This document shows positions 543-40,164 of a stretch of 42,993 bases of DNA, in pieces. Origin of the DNA: Armatimonadota bacterium (GTDB taxonomy: Bacteria > Armatimonadota > UBA5829); the NCBI GenBank assembly GCA_039679645.1, contig JBDKUO010000043.1, positions 1 through 42,993 on the forward strand. Direction: 5' to 3'. How positions within the stretch are numbered: position 1 is the first letter of the stretch; every line of letters starts with the position of its first letter. Under the pieces are notes generated by a model. That model was given only the letters and a program-made list of their open reading frames with translations, did no database searches and had not been told where the DNA came from. The position numbers and the translations under genes were made by a program.

Positions 543-587
543 TACAAAGTGTGGCGAGCGTTCCGGACTTTCCACTATGGAGGGCAA

Positions 588-1259
588 ATGGAAAACATAA
601 CAATAATCGCTGATGAAATTCGCGAACTGCTGGATGAGACAAATGCCGTAAGAGAAGCGGCGTTAAAGCTGTCGCGTGAAACTATCAGGCTCTGTGCAAA
701 CTCCATTCGCGCAAGTCATAGAGAGGACTTTGACGAGGCCTGCAGGCTGAAATCCGAGGCTCGCAAAAAGGTCGAAGAGGCAAAGCAGATACTCAAGGAC
801 AAGCTCGAAATTTATTACACGGGCTATGTTCAGGATGCTCAGAAAGAGTATGCCGAGTCGGAGCTGACTTATGCTATAATCCGGGAGATGGAGTTTCCGC
901 GCCATGAGGATCTGGGTGTCGAGGCGGCGGCGTATCTCAACGGTATGGCCGAGGCCATTGGCGAGAGCAGACGCCACGTGCTGGATGTGATGCGTCACGG
1001 CGATCTGGTTAGGGCCGAGCGGATTCTGGATATAATGGACGAGGTATACTACATACTCATTACGTTCGACTATCCAGACGCAGTCACGCAGGGCCTTCGC
1101 CGGCAGACGGATATGGTCAGAGGTGTTCTCGAGCGCACCCGAGGGGACATCACTCTTCTTCAACAGCAGCAGAGGCTCGAGGGCGCGATCGAGACCGCTA
1201 TAGAGCGGATGTGCAATGAACCGGGTAATCGAAAAGCTTCGGAGGGCGACACAAAATAG
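588..1259 (+). CDS. Translin-family RNA/DNA-binding protein
   Basis: A 223-residue, almost all-helical soluble protein of the translin family (archaeal-type, COG2178-like). Recognisable features in order are an N-terminal helix with a RETIRLCANSIRASHREDFD stretch (residues about 33-52), the YYTGYVQDAQKEYAESE segment near 76-92, the GVEAAAYLNGMAEAIGESRR helix near 111-130, and the FDYPDAVTQGLRR/VRGVLERTRGDIT signature near 161-188. Translins form ring-shaped octamers that bind single-stranded nucleic acid, and TRAX relatives are RNases in eukaryotic C3PO. Nuclease activity here is not established. ATG 588 is chosen because AGGG lies just upstream; the frame also opens at GTG 549. The last 44 bases overlap the nucleotidyltransferase gene, so translational coupling and a shared RNA-related role are likely. 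Translin is common in archaea and eukaryotes but unusual in bacteria. Confidence 0.85.
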   Translation: MENITIIADEIRELLDETNAVREAALKLSRETIRLCANSIRASHREDFDEACRLKSEARKKVEEAKQILKDKLEIYYTGYVQDAQKEYAESELTYAIIREMEFPRHEDLGVEAAAYLNGMAEAIGESRRHVLDVMRHGDLVRAERILDIMDEVYYILITFDYPDAVTQGLRRQTDMVRGVLERTRGDITLLQQQQRLEGAIETAIERMCNEPGNRKASEGDTK

Positions 1260-2580
1260 CCCATATGCGGGACGGCTCTATCTGGTCGGCGGCATTGTTC
1301 GCGACAAGTTTATGGGTATTCCTCCCGATGAGGACATAGACATTGTGCTCGAAGGCGACGCTGCCGGGCTTGCGAATTTTTTGCACGAGCGCGGCGTCGC
1401 CGATTACCGCCCGGTAACTTTTGCGCGTTTTGGGACGGCTATGATCATAGTCGATGACCGTCAGGTCGAGATTGTGGGGGCTAGGAAAGAGTCATATGAT
1501 GCCTCCAGCCGCAAGCCGATCACACAGCCCGGAACACTTGCCGACGATGCGGCGCGCCGCGATTTCACCATAAACACTCTGCTTGAAAACCTCCATACCG
1601 GCGAGGTCCTGGACCTTACCGGCCAGGCTGAGCGCGATATCCGCGATGGAATCATCCGCACTCCTGTCGATCCTATAGTCACTTTTAATGACGACCCTCT
1701 GCGCATGCTTCGCGCAATACGCTTTGCATCCCGATTTGGGTTCAAGATCGATGAAAAAACTTACTCAGCCATATACTCCAGCGCCCACAGATTGAGTATC
1801 GTCAGCCAGGAACGTATTAAGGACGAGTTTCTGAAAATATTGATGAGCGCCGGAATGGTCCGGGGTTTGGAGATGCTGCGTGAAACCGGCTTGCTTGCCA
1901 TATTTGCGCCTGAGCTTACGGCCATGCATGGAGTCACCCAAAACATCTATCACATATATGATGTATGGACACATTCATTAAAGACGCTTGAGTCAATTCC
2001 CGCCGAAGCGGGTATTATAATGAGGCTGGCCGCTTTGATGCATGATATAGGTAAGGTCGAGGCAAGGTCCGTTGCTCCCGATGGAGCAGTTCACTTTTAT
2101 AATCATGCTCAGGTGGGCGCGAAGATAGCCCATAGGATTATGCGCAGATTGAAATTTTCAAACTCGCAGATCGCCCAGGTCGAATTTCTAATATCAATGC
2201 ATCTGCGAGTTGGGGAATATGATAAACAGTGGACCGATGCAGCCGTGCGTCGTCTTATTCGTGAGGCGGACCATCACCTAGATGATCTGATAATGCTGAC
2301 CCAGGCGGACAAGTCCGCATCGAATACGGATATGCCTTCGGTCGATCTGGATGCGTTTTGCGAACATGTTGCGCGAGTAAAGACAAAGCTGGCCGGTCAT
2401 AAGATTACAAGCCCGCTCGACGGACGTGAAATAATTGAACTGCTGGGTATTGATCAGGGGCCGAAAGTTGGCGAGGTCAAGGCATATTTGGAGAGGGAAA
2501 TTATTGAAGGGAATCTTTTGGCGGGTGACAAAGCAGGGGCTGCCGAATTAATCGGGCATAAGTTTGGCGTAATATCTTAG
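1216..2580 (+). CDS. tRNA nucleotidyltransferase / poly(A) polymerase with HD domain
   Basis: A 454-residue class II nucleotidyltransferase that adds CCA or A residues to RNA 3' ends. The catalytic head shows YLVGGIVRD (about 22-30) and the metal-binding carboxylates in DEDIDIV (D40, D42). It is followed by the RRDFTINTL segment and the DDPLRMLRAIRFASRFGF segment typical of the neck/body. A C-terminal HD domain carries the HDIGK motif (H276-D277), as in enzymes that also have phosphohydrolase activity. Length fits the HD-containing bacterial CCA/PAP group. The ATG lies inside the 3' end of the translin gene in another frame, which implies co-translation. Sequence alone does not separate CCA-adding, A-adding and poly(A) activity. 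An inverted repeat follows the stop at 2,603-2,650. Confidence 0.9.
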   Translation: MNRVIEKLRRATQNSPYAGRLYLVGGIVRDKFMGIPPDEDIDIVLEGDAAGLANFLHERGVADYRPVTFARFGTAMIIVDDRQVEIVGARKESYDASSRKPITQPGTLADDAARRDFTINTLLENLHTGEVLDLTGQAERDIRDGIIRTPVDPIVTFNDDPLRMLRAIRFASRFGFKIDEKTYSAIYSSAHRLSIVSQERIKDEFLKILMSAGMVRGLEMLRETGLLAIFAPELTAMHGVTQNIYHIYDVWTHSLKTLESIPAEAGIIMRLAALMHDIGKVEARSVAPDGAVHFYNHAQVGAKIAHRIMRRLKFSNSQIAQVEFLISMHLRVGEYDKQWTDAAVRRLIREADHHLDDLIMLTQADKSASNTDMPSVDLDAFCEHVARVKTKLAGHKITSPLDGREIIELLGIDQGPKVGEVKAYLEREIIEGNLLAGDKAGAAELIGHKFGVIS

Positions 2581-2592
2581 ACTGAATTAAAA

Positions 2593-2621
2593 TTGACAGT
2601 GTCCATGGGGCATGATATACT
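2593..2621 (+). promoter_or_regulatory. Consensus sigma-70 promoter upstream of rpoN
   Basis: A perfect TTGACA (2593-2598) and TATACT (2616-2621) are separated by 17 bases. The predicted start is near 2628, about 205 bases before rpoN, so the mRNA has a long leader. The remainder of the 2,622-2,833 leader holds no ORF or known riboswitch that I recognise. Confidence 0.75.
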
Positions 2622-2833: not shown

Positions 2834-4261
2834 GTGAGCTACGGATTGCTGATCGAGCAAGGTCTAAAACAGACTTTATCACAACGGATTGACCCCAAGT
2901 TAATCATGGCCAACAACATACTGCAGCTTTCATCACTGGAGTTGCAGCAGGTCGTCGAGCAGGAACTTGCGGAAAATCCGGCGCTTGAGGTGCCTGAGGA
3001 GGACCCTTGCGAAGGCTGCGAACAGCCAAAAACTCTGTGCCTTGACTGCCCGTTCCGCAAGCAGTCCGTCTCTTCGGACGATTCCGATCTGAGCGTGTAT
3101 GAGTTGGATGAGCCGATTGATTTTGCTGCCGATGCCGATGATGGCGAGGGTGATTTCATATCAAACATACGCGCCGAGGTCACGCTTCACGACTACCTCA
3201 CCGAGGTTTTGCGCGCCGTAGTACCTTCCGAGCAGTGGGATATCGGCGAGTATATCATATCCAACATCAATGAATCGGGCTATCTAGAATGCACTATTGA
3301 AGAGCTTGCTCATGAGATGGGTAAGGATATAGATGAAGTCGAGCTGGTCCTTTCGGTCATACACACCCTCGATCCTCCGGGGATCGGCGCGCGCAATCTG
3401 CAGGAATGCCTGCAGATTCAGCTCGAAAGGCTGGAGGAAGATGAATGCGGTAATCCGGTCGCGCTGGCCATTGTGCGCGACTATTGGCAGGAAATGCTCT
3501 CCGGTAAGGTAGGCAGAATAGCTCGCCGCCTGAAGGTGACTGCAAAGGATGTCGGTTTCGCAATCGAGTTTGTCAGAAAGCAGCTAAACCCCTATCCCGG
3601 CAACAGTTTCCGGCCTCCTTATCAAAATGAGCCTGTAAACCAGGGTGGAGCGGTCAGGCCGGATGTCGTGGTGCGCCGAACACCGAACGGCTACGAGATC
3701 GACGTGGCGGGCAGCGATTTTTACCTGTTGTCGATCAACTCAAGATACCGCCAGATGTATAACGATATCCGTAACGGTGGAGCTAAAAAATTCAGCGGAG
3801 ATGATAAGAGCCACATTTCACAGTTTGTCGAGCGAGCTGACCTGTTCATACGATATATAAATGAAAGGCGCAAGACACTGCGGCAGATCACGAAATCGAT
3901 TGTGGAGTATCAGCAGGGCTATATAGAGACCGGCGCGAAATCTTTTCTAAGGCCGCTTACCCGCACCAAGATAGCGCGCGCGCTGAAGATGCATGAATCT
4001 ACTGTCAGTCGCGCTACGGCGAACAAGTTTGTTCAACTTCCAAGCCAGGAAGTTGTACCGTTCGACTTTTTCTTCGACGGCTCAGTATCAATCAAGGATG
4101 TAATTGGGGAACTCATAGCCTCGGAAGACAAGTGTAATCCTCTCAGTGACCAGCAGATCGCAAAGATTCTGCAGGAACAGGGCCTTAATGTTGCCCGCAG
4201 AACGGTGGTCAAATACCGTGAAGCGCAAAAAATCCTCTCCAGCCGCCAGCGGCGAAGATAA
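2834..4261 (+). CDS. rpoN: RNA polymerase sigma-54 factor
   Basis: A 475-residue sigma-54, which directs RNA polymerase to -24/-12 promoters and needs AAA+ enhancer-binding activators. The N-terminal activator-interacting region has the Gln/Leu-rich LSSLELQQVVEQELAENPAL segment (about 32-51). The core-binding domain follows, with an IGARNLQECL segment. Then comes a helix-turn-helix around 377-398 (KIARALKMHESTVSRA) and the diagnostic RpoN box ARRTVVKYRE (454-463). The start is GTG 2834, since no ATG precedes the conserved N-terminus. Unusual: residues 59-72 form CEGC-6-CLDC, two CxxC pairs that could bind zinc, just after the activator-interacting helix. No activator gene is in the window, and I found no convincing -24/-12 promoter in its intergenic regions. 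Confidence 0.95.
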   Translation: MSYGLLIEQGLKQTLSQRIDPKLIMANNILQLSSLELQQVVEQELAENPALEVPEEDPCEGCEQPKTLCLDCPFRKQSVSSDDSDLSVYELDEPIDFAADADDGEGDFISNIRAEVTLHDYLTEVLRAVVPSEQWDIGEYIISNINESGYLECTIEELAHEMGKDIDEVELVLSVIHTLDPPGIGARNLQECLQIQLERLEEDECGNPVALAIVRDYWQEMLSGKVGRIARRLKVTAKDVGFAIEFVRKQLNPYPGNSFRPPYQNEPVNQGGAVRPDVVVRRTPNGYEIDVAGSDFYLLSINSRYRQMYNDIRNGGAKKFSGDDKSHISQFVERADLFIRYINERRKTLRQITKSIVEYQQGYIETGAKSFLRPLTRTKIARALKMHESTVSRATANKFVQLPSQEVVPFDFFFDGSVSIKDVIGELIASEDKCNPLSDQQIAKILQEQGLNVARRTVVKYREAQKILSSRQRRR

Positions 4262-32024: not shown

Positions 32025-34250
32025 ATGACAATTAACAAAGTGGAGATTGAGCTTGGCGGTAAGACTATTGCCCTGGAGACGGGACGTATAGCAAACCAGG
32101 CTAATGGCGCGGTATTGCTGAGCTGTGGCGAAACCATAGTTATGGCCACGGCAACCATGAGCGCTAAACCGAGGGAAGGAATGAACTTCTTCCCTCTTAT
32201 TTGCGATTATGAAGAGAGGAAATACGCCGTCGGTAAGATCCCCGGCGGTTTTGTGAAAAGGGGCGGACGTCCCTCTGAGAAGGCTGTTCTCACCTCTCGT
32301 TTAATCGACAGGCCTATGAGGCCGCTTTTCCCCGACGGCATGCGAAATGACGTTCAGGTCATCGCGATGCCTATTTCAATGGAGCCGGAGTCACCCGCTG
32401 ATGTTCTGGCGGTTACGGCTGCATCGGCTGCACTCGCGATATCTGATATTCCCTGGGGCGGTCCGTTGGCTTGCGTCAGGGTCTGCAGAGTCAACGGCGA
32501 ACTCGTCCTGAACCCGTCAATCGAGCAGATCAATGAGTCCGATATGGAACTTGTGGTCGCGGGCATGGACGGCAAGGTCATGGAGATCGAGCTCGAAGCG
32601 GGCGAAGCGACCGAAGACGAATTGATGATAGCGATGGATTTTGCGCACGAAGCGATAGACAAACTTGTTGCGCTTCAGCGTGAACTGATCGAGAAAGTCG
32701 GCAAGCCTAAAGTTGAGGTTCCGATTCTTGCGCCGGACCCCGAACTCTATGAAGAGATCGCTCCAAAGATTGCCCCTCGGATAGCCGAGTTTATAAAGAA
32801 TCCCGAAAACGCAGCTAAAGAAAAGGCAATTTTCGATCTGGAAGCGCAGCTAAAGAATGAGTTGGCTGAAGAATATCCTGAGCGCGAAGCAGAGATCGGC
32901 GAGATCGTCTATAAGGTAATTAAAAAGCAGGTTCGCCGGATGATCCTCGAAGAGGGCGCGCGCGCCGACGGCCGGGCTCTGGACGAAATCCGCCCACTTA
33001 AGGCCGAAGTCGGTTTCCTGCCGAGAGTTCACGGGTCAGCTCTGTTTTCAAGAGGACAGACACAGGTGCTTACTGCACTTACACTCGGCTCACTGGATGA
33101 TGCGCAGAAAGTGGACAGCCTCGAGGAAGACACAGAGAAGCGCTTTATGCACTTCTATAATTTCCCACCATACAGCGTCGGCGAAGTCAGCCCGCTGAGG
33201 GGCGCCGGAAGACGTGAAGTCGGTCATGGCGCGCTTGCGGAGAAGGCTCTTCGGCCTATGATTCCTCCGACTGAGGAATTTCCATACGCTATGCTGGTGA
33301 CATCCGATGTTATGGAGTCTAACGGCTCCACATCGATGGCAAGCACCTGCGGATGTACCCTCGCATTATTGGATGCGGGAGTGAAGCTTAAGGCACCTGT
33401 TGCAGGTATTTCGATCGGTCTGATTACCGGTGAAGATAAGAAAGTCCTGCTTACAGACATCCAGGGTCTTGAGGACTTCCATGGTGACATGGACTTCAAG
33501 GTTGCCGGAAGCCGCAATGGCGTGACTGCAATTCAGGTGGACACCAAGACTGATGGTCTCACTCGCGACGTAGTAGAGGGAGCTTTGCAGAAGGCCAAAG
33601 AAGCCAGAATGAAGATTCTGGACGTTATCGCCAGTGCGATCCCTGAAGCAAGGGAGAACATGAGCGAGTATGCGCCGAGAGTATTTGTCGTGGAAATCCA
33701 CCCCGACAAGATCGGTGACATAATAGGCCCAGGCGGCAAGGTCATTAAAAAGATCGAAGCCGAAACCGGCGCGAAGCTCGATATCGAGCAGGACGGCCAT
33801 GTCTATATAACTGCGGTCGATGCTGCCGGTGGCGAGAGAGCTAAGAAGATCGTCGAGGACATCACCAAAGAGGTCCAGGTCGGCGAGGTATATACCGGCA
33901 AGGTGACCCGGATCGAGCCATTCGGTGCATTTGTGGAGCTTACTCCCGGCAAGGATGGTCTGGTTCATATCTCCCAACTTGCCAAAGAACGTGTCGAGCG
34001 GACGGAAGATGTCTGCCAGCTTGGCGATGAGCTGCTGGTTAAGGTAATCGAGATTAGTCCCGATGGAAAGATTCGTCTGACACGCCGTGGTTTGATCGAG
34101 GGTGACGAAGACTACGTAGCGCCGCCCCCCGAGCCTCGCGGCGGACGCGGCGGCGGGCGACCGCATGGCGGCGACCGTGGAGGTTACCGTGATCGTGGAC
34201 CGCGTGAAGGCGGTGACGGGCCTGGAGCGAGATTTCGTCCCAAGAGATAA
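32025..34250 (+). CDS. pnp: Polyribonucleotide nucleotidyltransferase (PNPase)
   Basis: A 741-residue phosphorolytic 3'-5' exoribonuclease. The first RNase PH domain (about 10-140) contains FFPLICDYEERKYAVGKIPGG. It is followed by an all-helical linker, then the second, catalytic RNase PH domain (about 310-460) with RGQTQVLTALTLGS and FMHFYNFPPYSVGE. The KH domain (about 560-615) shows IGDIIGPGGKVIKKI. The S1 domain (about 618-690) shows GKVTRIEPFGAFVEL and KDGLVHISQLA. The tail (about 700-741) is Gly/Arg-rich with RGG-like repeats, an RNA-binding extension seen in some bacteria. ATG 32025 is preceded by AGGAG about 14 bases away. A large inverted repeat follows the stop. Confidence 0.97.
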   Translation: MTINKVEIELGGKTIALETGRIANQANGAVLLSCGETIVMATATMSAKPREGMNFFPLICDYEERKYAVGKIPGGFVKRGGRPSEKAVLTSRLIDRPMRPLFPDGMRNDVQVIAMPISMEPESPADVLAVTAASAALAISDIPWGGPLACVRVCRVNGELVLNPSIEQINESDMELVVAGMDGKVMEIELEAGEATEDELMIAMDFAHEAIDKLVALQRELIEKVGKPKVEVPILAPDPELYEEIAPKIAPRIAEFIKNPENAAKEKAIFDLEAQLKNELAEEYPEREAEIGEIVYKVIKKQVRRMILEEGARADGRALDEIRPLKAEVGFLPRVHGSALFSRGQTQVLTALTLGSLDDAQKVDSLEEDTEKRFMHFYNFPPYSVGEVSPLRGAGRREVGHGALAEKALRPMIPPTEEFPYAMLVTSDVMESNGSTSMASTCGCTLALLDAGVKLKAPVAGISIGLITGEDKKVLLTDIQGLEDFHGDMDFKVAGSRNGVTAIQVDTKTDGLTRDVVEGALQKAKEARMKILDVIASAIPEARENMSEYAPRVFVVEIHPDKIGDIIGPGGKVIKKIEAETGAKLDIEQDGHVYITAVDAAGGERAKKIVEDITKEVQVGEVYTGKVTRIEPFGAFVELTPGKDGLVHISQLAKERVERTEDVCQLGDELLVKVIEISPDGKIRLTRRGLIEGDEDYVAPPPEPRGGRGGGRPHGGDRGGYRDRGPREGGDGPGARFRPKR

Positions 34251-38481: not shown

Positions 38482-40164
38482 TTGAATAAAGCAACAAGTA
38501 TGGACTCACAAAAACTGCAGATAATCCCCCTTGGCGGTGTCATGGAAATAGGAAAGAACATGACCGCTTACCAATATAACGATCAGATATTGATCGTTGA
38601 CGCAGGCCTGATGTTCCCCGACGAGGATATGCTCGGGGTCGATATAGTAATCCCCGATATCACATTTCTTGAGGAGAACGCGGAGAAAGTCCTGGGTATT
38701 GTGCTCACACACGGCCATGAGGACCACATCGGCGCGCTGCCGTATGTGCTTCGCCGATTGGACGTGCCTGTATGGGGGACGCCTCTCACCCTGGGGTTTG
38801 TATCTAATAAACTACGCGAGCATCACCTCGATGATGTTGCACGGCTCTACGAAGTCCAGTCCGGCGATACTATCGAAATAGGTGAGTTTACTGTGGAGTT
38901 CGTTCGAGTATCTCACAGCATTCCCGATGCCTCAGGAATGGTGATCAAGACTCCAGTGGGCACAATTGTCCAGAGCAGCGATTTCAAGTTCGACCAGACC
39001 CCGATAGACGGTCAGCTTGCCGATGTCAGCCGTCTGGCTAAGGTCGGTGAAGAGGGCGTGCTAGCGTTTTTGTGCGACTCGACCAATGTTGAGAAGCCTG
39101 GCTTTACCCCCAGCGAGAGTGTGGTAGGCGAGACATTTGAAAAGATCTTCCCACGCGCCAAAGGCAGGATCATAATAGCCGCTTTCGCCTCTAATATCCA
39201 TCGAATCCAGCAGGTATACAACATTGCCGCCCGCAATGGCAGACGAGTTGCAGTGGTTGGCCGAAGCATGGCTGAAAACTGCAGGATCGCCGAGGAACTG
39301 GGCTATCTGATTGTTCCTGAAGATGCGCGTTTGCAACTGAGCGAACTCAATGATCTCAGCCCTGATGAAGTCGTGATTGTGACCACAGGCAGCCAGGGCG
39401 AGCCTCTTTCGGCTCTATCGCGCATGGCCAGCGATGAGCACAAGCAGATCAAGATAGACGAGGGAGACACGGTCATAATCAGCGCTACTCCCATTCCGGG
39501 CAATGAAGACCTGATCATGCGCACGATCAATCGACTCTTTAAGCATGGCGCGGATGTGGTCTACGAGCCGTTTACGCACGTGCATGTTTCCGGCCATGGC
39601 AATCAGGAAGACATTCGTCTTATGCTCAATCTATTGAAGCCGAAGTATATTGTGCCGGTCCATGGCGAGCAAAGGCATTACGCTAAGTTTGTGGATGTGG
39701 CGGCTGGGTTAGGCTATTCGAGCGAGCAGGTATTTCGCATGTATCCCGGCGATGTCCTTGAGACTGACGGTGAAAATGCCCAGGTCACTGAAAAAGTGAC
39801 CGCCGGGACGGTTATGGTTGACGGGCTTGGGGTAGGGGATGTGGAGGATGTGGTCCTTCGCGACCGCAAACATCTTTCGCAGGACGGTGTGCTTATTGCT
39901 GTAATGGGTATCGACCAGGGGCGCAAGGAGATTGTCACAGGACCTGATATTCTCTCACGCGGGTTTGTCGGCGAAGATCTGGGCGTCGAGATCACCGAAG
40001 AGGCAAAAGGCGTGCTGCTTGCAAAGCTGCAGGATTTGATAGAAGACAACGGCATCGAAGGCCTGGATGATGTCAAAGCGGGCTGCCGTAAAGCGCTCGC
40101 GAAGTTTATTTATGAGCGGACTCATCGCAGGCCTATGATTGTGCCGGTTGTGATGGAAGTGTAA
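38482..40164 (+). CDS. rnj: Ribonuclease J
   Basis: A 560-residue metallo-beta-lactamase/beta-CASP RNase with 5'-3' exo- and endonuclease activity, central to mRNA turnover and rRNA maturation. The N-terminal GGVMEIGKNMTAY and catalytic HGHEDHIG (H77, H79, D81, H82) are intact, as are the CDSTNVEKPG and HVSGHGNQED segments of the beta-CASP part. The C-terminal domain ends with DDVKAGCRKALAKFIYERTHRRPMI. The start is uncertain: TTG 38482 is only two bases after AGGA, and ATG 38500 is an alternative. It sits downstream of dapB-asd, as rnjB does in Bacillus. Another paralogue may exist elsewhere. Confidence 0.93.
   Translation: MNKATSMDSQKLQIIPLGGVMEIGKNMTAYQYNDQILIVDAGLMFPDEDMLGVDIVIPDITFLEENAEKVLGIVLTHGHEDHIGALPYVLRRLDVPVWGTPLTLGFVSNKLREHHLDDVARLYEVQSGDTIEIGEFTVEFVRVSHSIPDASGMVIKTPVGTIVQSSDFKFDQTPIDGQLADVSRLAKVGEEGVLAFLCDSTNVEKPGFTPSESVVGETFEKIFPRAKGRIIIAAFASNIHRIQQVYNIAARNGRRVAVVGRSMAENCRIAEELGYLIVPEDARLQLSELNDLSPDEVVIVTTGSQGEPLSALSRMASDEHKQIKIDEGDTVIISATPIPGNEDLIMRTINRLFKHGADVVYEPFTHVHVSGHGNQEDIRLMLNLLKPKYIVPVHGEQRHYAKFVDVAAGLGYSSEQVFRMYPGDVLETDGENAQVTEKVTAGTVMVDGLGVGDVEDVVLRDRKHLSQDGVLIAVMGIDQGRKEIVTGPDILSRGFVGEDLGVEITEEAKGVLLAKLQDLIEDNGIEGLDDVKAGCRKALAKFIYERTHRRPMIVPVVMEV

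Follow-up and report, generated by a model that had tools for sequence, protein, structure and literature searches.

A Trax-like protein of the translin superfamily and its overlap with a tRNA nucleotidyltransferase gene in Armatimonadota

The locus

The window, that is, the whole stretch of 42,993 nucleotides that was analysed, is a contig of an Armatimonadota bacterium (JBDKUO010000043.1, assembly GCA_039679645.1). Close to its start, two overlapping genes lie on the forward strand. The first (588..1259) encodes a Trax/C3PO-like protein of 223 aa, which is assigned to the translin superfamily by homology and predicted fold and is a predicted endoribonuclease subunit. The second (1216..2580) encodes a protein of 454 aa from the HD-type tRNA nucleotidyltransferase / poly(A) polymerase family. 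They share 44 bases (1216..1259, forward strand), and similar or identical overlaps are found in relatives. A Shine-Dalgarno-like GGAGGG, read from the sequence, precedes the first gene at 579..584 on the same strand. Because of this motif, and because most close relatives start at the same position, ATG 588 is taken as the start. The relatives give no support to the longer frame that would begin at GTG 549. The placement of the two genes, the 223 residues and the 44-base overlap are exactly as claimed in a first-pass annotation of this DNA, and the four motifs that it quoted are all found in the protein. The overlap suggests that the two proteins are probably translated together.

The gene that follows the pair is rpoN (sigma-54; 2834..4261, forward strand). 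It holds this position only in family f1, in most of its members (families of the class are labelled f1 to f5 here), and lies outside the conserved pair. A strong sigma-70-like promoter match between the pair and rpoN (2593..2621, forward strand; 11/12, with TG before the -10 element), which is a consensus match only, suggests that rpoN may form a separate unit. Neither the surroundings of the pair nor the window as a whole contained a tRNA or a known RNA family. PADLOC gave no match that would place the Trax-like protein in a defence system, and a search for plasmid carriage gave no match. Genes for polynucleotide phosphorylase and RNase J are seen at 32025-34250 and 38482-40164 of the window; both enzymes act on RNA ends, though the genes are 30 kb off.

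Identity of the 223-aa protein

The nearest characterized proteins are archaeal. In phmmer searches, the 223-aa protein matches Archaeoglobus fulgidus Trax (AfTrax, 3zc1) at E 4.1e-24 and NEQ131 of Nanoarchaeum equitans at E 6.1e-9. With a profile built from 51 bacterial relatives, the E values are 2.9e-39 for AfTrax and 2.6e-16 for NEQ131, and the matches extend to human TRAX (2e-5) and Drosophila Trax (4e-4). Translin matches this profile at about 0.9 or worse, with Drosophila translin at ~1.

Fold comparison gives the same ranking. The AF2 model (pLDDT 93.7, pTM 0.85) is all-helical and has the translin fold across the whole chain. Foldseek aligns it with 3zc1 at a TM score of 0.91 on the target. 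The predicted model superimposes on A. fulgidus C3PO (AfC3PO) with Z 24.5 and 1.6 Å over 190 residues, followed by N. equitans C3PO (NeC3PO; Z 21.5), human TRAX (3pja_J; Z 20.2) and the translins (Z 12-17.5), while unrelated helical bundles among the same matches reach at most Z 11. By sequence and predicted fold, the protein is clearly a member of the translin superfamily of the Trax/archaeal-C3PO type. The first-pass annotation had called it a translin; its place in the superfamily stands, but it lies nearer to Trax and archaeal C3PO than to translin, and the identity as a binding-only translin was dropped on the profile and fold rankings.

The Pfam search that the first-pass annotation had proposed points the other way: PF01997 (Translin) has no match in the 223-aa protein or anywhere in the genome, although homology is clear through AfTrax. 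The gathering score of this model is 25.9 bits; AfTrax passes it with 47.7 bits, and a relative from Dehalococcoidia falls below it with 19.5 bits. By the refuting condition set out with that check, the missing match would have counted against the identification. It does not mean non-membership, because AfTrax, a member of solved structure, matches the bacterial protein at the E value given above. Judged by these scores, PF01997 fails to recognize this branch of bacterial proteins.

A conserved acidic site with one substitution

The catalytic residues of human TRAX are E126, E129, D193 and E197 (PMC9753400). In the bacterial protein, E87/E90 and E122/E126 share their spacing and align to two AfTrax motifs, QELVEA and DAVGE; the match to the human numbering rests on this spacing and on the AfTrax alignment. 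The codons for E87 to E90 (EYAE, against the ELVE stretch of AfTrax) lie at 846..857 and those for E122 to E126 (EAIGE) at 951..965, both on the forward strand. All four acids are invariant in the 51 aligned bacterial relatives, as are D83, D175, R22, R30, R128, R129 and R178. Three are identical to the human acids. The remaining one, E122, occupies the position of human D193 and is an Asp to Glu change: where AfTrax and NEQ131 carry Asp, all bacterial sequences (51/51) carry Glu. In 3zc0, a construct of the AfC3PO-RNA complex, the same Asp is Ala, which is consistent with an inactivating mutation. Exchange of Asp for Glu at a metal site could leave the activity lost or altered.

The comparison with AfC3PO (AfTrax; 3zc0, 3zc1) is the closest. 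The two share the fold over about 190 residues (1.5-1.6 Å, 34% identity), the organization as one Trax-like subunit that has no translin partner, the acidic cluster and the conserved Arg positions. They differ in the metal-site residue, in recognition by PF01997 and in the gene neighbour. NEQ131 (5jr9, 5jrc, 5jre) is likewise a single Trax-like protein of the same fold, but its identity is only 22-23% and it has Asp where the bacterial proteins have Glu. NeC3PO, a lone Trax, is reported to degrade RNA on its own via oligomerization (PMC9051087). Eukaryotic C3PO, which consists of translin and TRAX, has the Trax subunit fold and the four acidic catalytic positions. However, it contains a separate translin subunit, and one translin-superfamily gene only was found in the source genome. 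By analogy with these relatives, the bacterial Trax-like protein probably self-assembles, and RNase activity is likely. The first-pass annotation had described a protein that binds single-stranded nucleic acids; the conserved nuclease acids point instead to a predicted ribonuclease rather than a binder only.

The nucleotidyltransferase and the tRNA genes

The 454-aa protein contains the head, RNA-binding and HD domains of a class II tRNA nucleotidyltransferase / poly(A) polymerase (PolyA_pol PF01743, 1.2e-23; PolyA_pol_RNAbd PF12627, 5.3e-20; HD PF01966, 6.5e-8), in agreement with the name the gene had been given. Bacterial HD-domain CCA-adding enzymes (TIGR02692) have the same three domains. 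However, the protein scores 316 bits with this nearest equivalog model, under its cut-off of 438.8, and sequence does not decide between CCA and A specificity. The gene is the single CCA/poly(A)-type polymerase gene of a genome that is 99.7% complete. The other weak polymerase match sits in a frame of 861 codons that looks GlnD-like.

All 33 distinct tRNA genes examined encode CCA (best 30 loci; 45 tRNA matches in all). The job of the nucleotidyltransferase is therefore probably repair, quality control or tailing. The tRNA-maturation role that had been suggested for the pair fares poorly on this count, since CCA addition would be unlikely as a maturation step where the genes already encode CCA. 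At L107, ARAGORN calls a selenocysteine tRNA of the source genome, with anticodon tca and an encoded CCA.

Distribution of the gene and of the pair

The Trax-like gene is widespread. Its closest named relative is from Armatimonadetes bacterium UBA5829 (84% identity), it occurs in 39 of the 41 sampled genomes of the phylum, the source genome included, and relatives are found in many Chloroflexota and Actinomycetota. Translin-superfamily proteins in eubacteria had already been reported in 2012 (Gupta, Kale and Kumar 2012, J Mol Evol 75:155, as cited in PMC5424206 and PMC3834833). In genome G008, a second, weak Trax-like match (C125:7372-7887; 21% identity, E 3.7e-6) lies inside an open frame of 541 aa.

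The pair is found far less widely than the gene. The two genes are adjacent in 17 genomes of the class, which belong to four families (f1, 10; f2, 2; f3, 2; f4, 3). Contig ends interrupt the pair in two others (G011 and G025). The genes are unlinked in eight genomes of the class, three of genus g5 and five of family f5, so that f5 has the pair in 0/5 genomes. Elsewhere in the phylum, the genes are linked in none of the 12 Trax-bearing genomes; in one of them (G033) some 3 kb separate the two, which are on opposite strands. The pair is also absent from 25 further genomes, most of them Chloroflexota or Actinomycetota and a few Armatimonadota, and 23 of these have a polymerase match. A universal link between Trax and the nucleotidyltransferase is ruled out by these counts. 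The expected conservation of the pair among relatives thus holds across four families, but as the arrangement of one lineage, not elsewhere.

Where the pair exists, it stands out from a scrambled background. The 17 genomes compared were chosen for having the pair; among their other neighbouring ORFs, only 14 of 1973 comparisons across f1-f4 match (0.7%), against 244 of 1227 within families. Within the genus the overlap always measures 44 or 38 bases; across the order, and likewise across f1-f3, most cases fall at 26-44 bases. In f4, a gap of 18-118 bases takes the place of the overlap. A tree, in which the two archaeal sequences both sat on very long branches, is consistent with linkage gained once and lost once. 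Since linkage arose about once, retention of the pair traces to one event.

Encoded CCA was considered as a reason for the linkage and ruled out, because unlinked genomes mostly encode CCA too: G020 in 22/22 tRNA genes, G026 in 21/22 and G008 in 18/22, with 17/17 in G009, a genome of the class without the Trax-like gene. In G009, which belongs to family f1, the nucleotidyltransferase (L135, 3863-4723) is shortened to about 286 aa and has no HD part; it adjoins a leucyl aminopeptidase gene, which is the third gene downstream in the window. Absence of the Trax-like gene alongside a shortened nucleotidyltransferase is suggestive, as a single case from a fragmented assembly.

Outside the lineage, other neighbours are seen. 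In Dehalococcoidia/Chloroflexota, thiE (thiamine monophosphate synthase) immediately precedes the Trax-like gene at L023, L025-L028, L031-L033, L035, L036, L043 and L058. The core role of the family cannot depend on the nucleotidyltransferase neighbour, because the neighbour differs by lineage, as with thiE in Dehalococcoidia.

Proposed role and alternatives

The product of the first gene would be a bacterial C3PO, all-helical and Trax-like, which probably self-assembles into a barrel like its archaeal relatives. The barrel would cut short RNA by means of a metal held by E87, E90, E122 and E126. The nucleotidyltransferase, probably made together with it, would most likely repair worn tRNA ends or tail RNA, and the Trax-like protein would most likely clear tRNA-derived pieces such as leaders, trailers and broken or unrepairable tRNAs. 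Known systems offer parallels. Neurospora C3PO removes 5' fragments of pre-tRNA (Li 2012, as cited in PMC3834833), and archaeal TRAX genes share operons with the gene for SepRS, which charges tRNA (PMC5424206; PMC8762117). In both the archaeal operons and the present pair, a Trax-like gene accompanies a gene for a tRNA-acting enzyme, but the partner is an aminoacyl-tRNA synthetase there and a nucleotidyltransferase here. A bacterial C3PO paired with a nucleotidyltransferase for the clearance of tRNA pieces is the best overall explanation, and we give it about even chances. The shared pathway is the weakest step of this mechanism: that both proteins act at tRNA ends, as the gene pair hints, is a tentative reading that we would sooner bet against. 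A more specific version may be imagined, in which the nucleotidyltransferase repairs or tags 3' ends, a homo-oligomeric C3PO with the Glu site destroys unrepairable or tagged tRNAs, and translational coupling fixes the ratio of the two. This is a long shot.

The strongest alternative keeps the nuclease and drops the joint pathway. The Trax-like protein would be an RNase of general function, acting on short or broken RNA, and would share only a promoter and a translation level with its neighbour. The change of partner between lineages (the nucleotidyltransferase in f1-f4, thiE in Dehalococcoidia, others elsewhere) fits such an operon of convenience, as do the single gain and single loss of linkage; both genes are of single-copy, household type, and a shared promoter would explain their retention. 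However, the pair survived the reshuffling of nearly all other neighbours in four families, and the overlap was retained in three of them. We place the chances of this alternative only a little below even.

In the second alternative, catalysis has been lost with the Asp to Glu change, and the protein is a translin-like RNA-binding chaperone, which perhaps presents tRNAs or fragments to the nucleotidyltransferase. The fixation of Glu at the counterpart of human D193 in all 51 relatives is in line with this, and the catalytic sites of eukaryotic C3PO belong to TRAX, the other subunit being translin (PMC3834833). However, the four positions are always acidic despite a mean column identity of 54% in the 51-relative alignment of the family, as a working metal site predicts, and both sequence and predicted fold are nearer to Trax than to translin. 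Such a chaperone is unlikely.

The name haloacid dehalogenase superfamily protein, borne by the best NCBIfam models (PRK14562 series; E 4.1e-78, none reaching its cut-off), is probably an inherited annotation error, and an enzyme of that type has practically no chance of being right, since the predicted fold is all-helical and Pfam finds no HAD domain.

What the pair may mean for C3PO biology

To our knowledge, C3PO has been studied almost wholly in eukaryotes, in connection with RNA interference and tRNA fragments, and in two archaea. The protein family itself is already known, including in bacteria; what sets this case apart is the clade-wide Asp to Glu change at the metal site and the lineage-restricted overlap. 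The literature search, which had most subscription papers outside its reach, found no paper on the pairing of translin with CCA-adding enzymes or nucleotidyltransferases, and the pairing of Trax with a nucleotidyltransferase looks new but restricted to one lineage. Missed by Pfam and named a haloacid dehalogenase by NCBI, this branch represents a widespread predicted RNase hidden in Armatimonadota, Chloroflexota and Actinomycetota. A concrete guess at its substrates, namely tRNA ends and fragments, comes from the overlap with the genome's sole CCA/poly(A) enzyme. If true, a role at tRNA ends would support tRNA clean-up as an ancestral job of C3PO.
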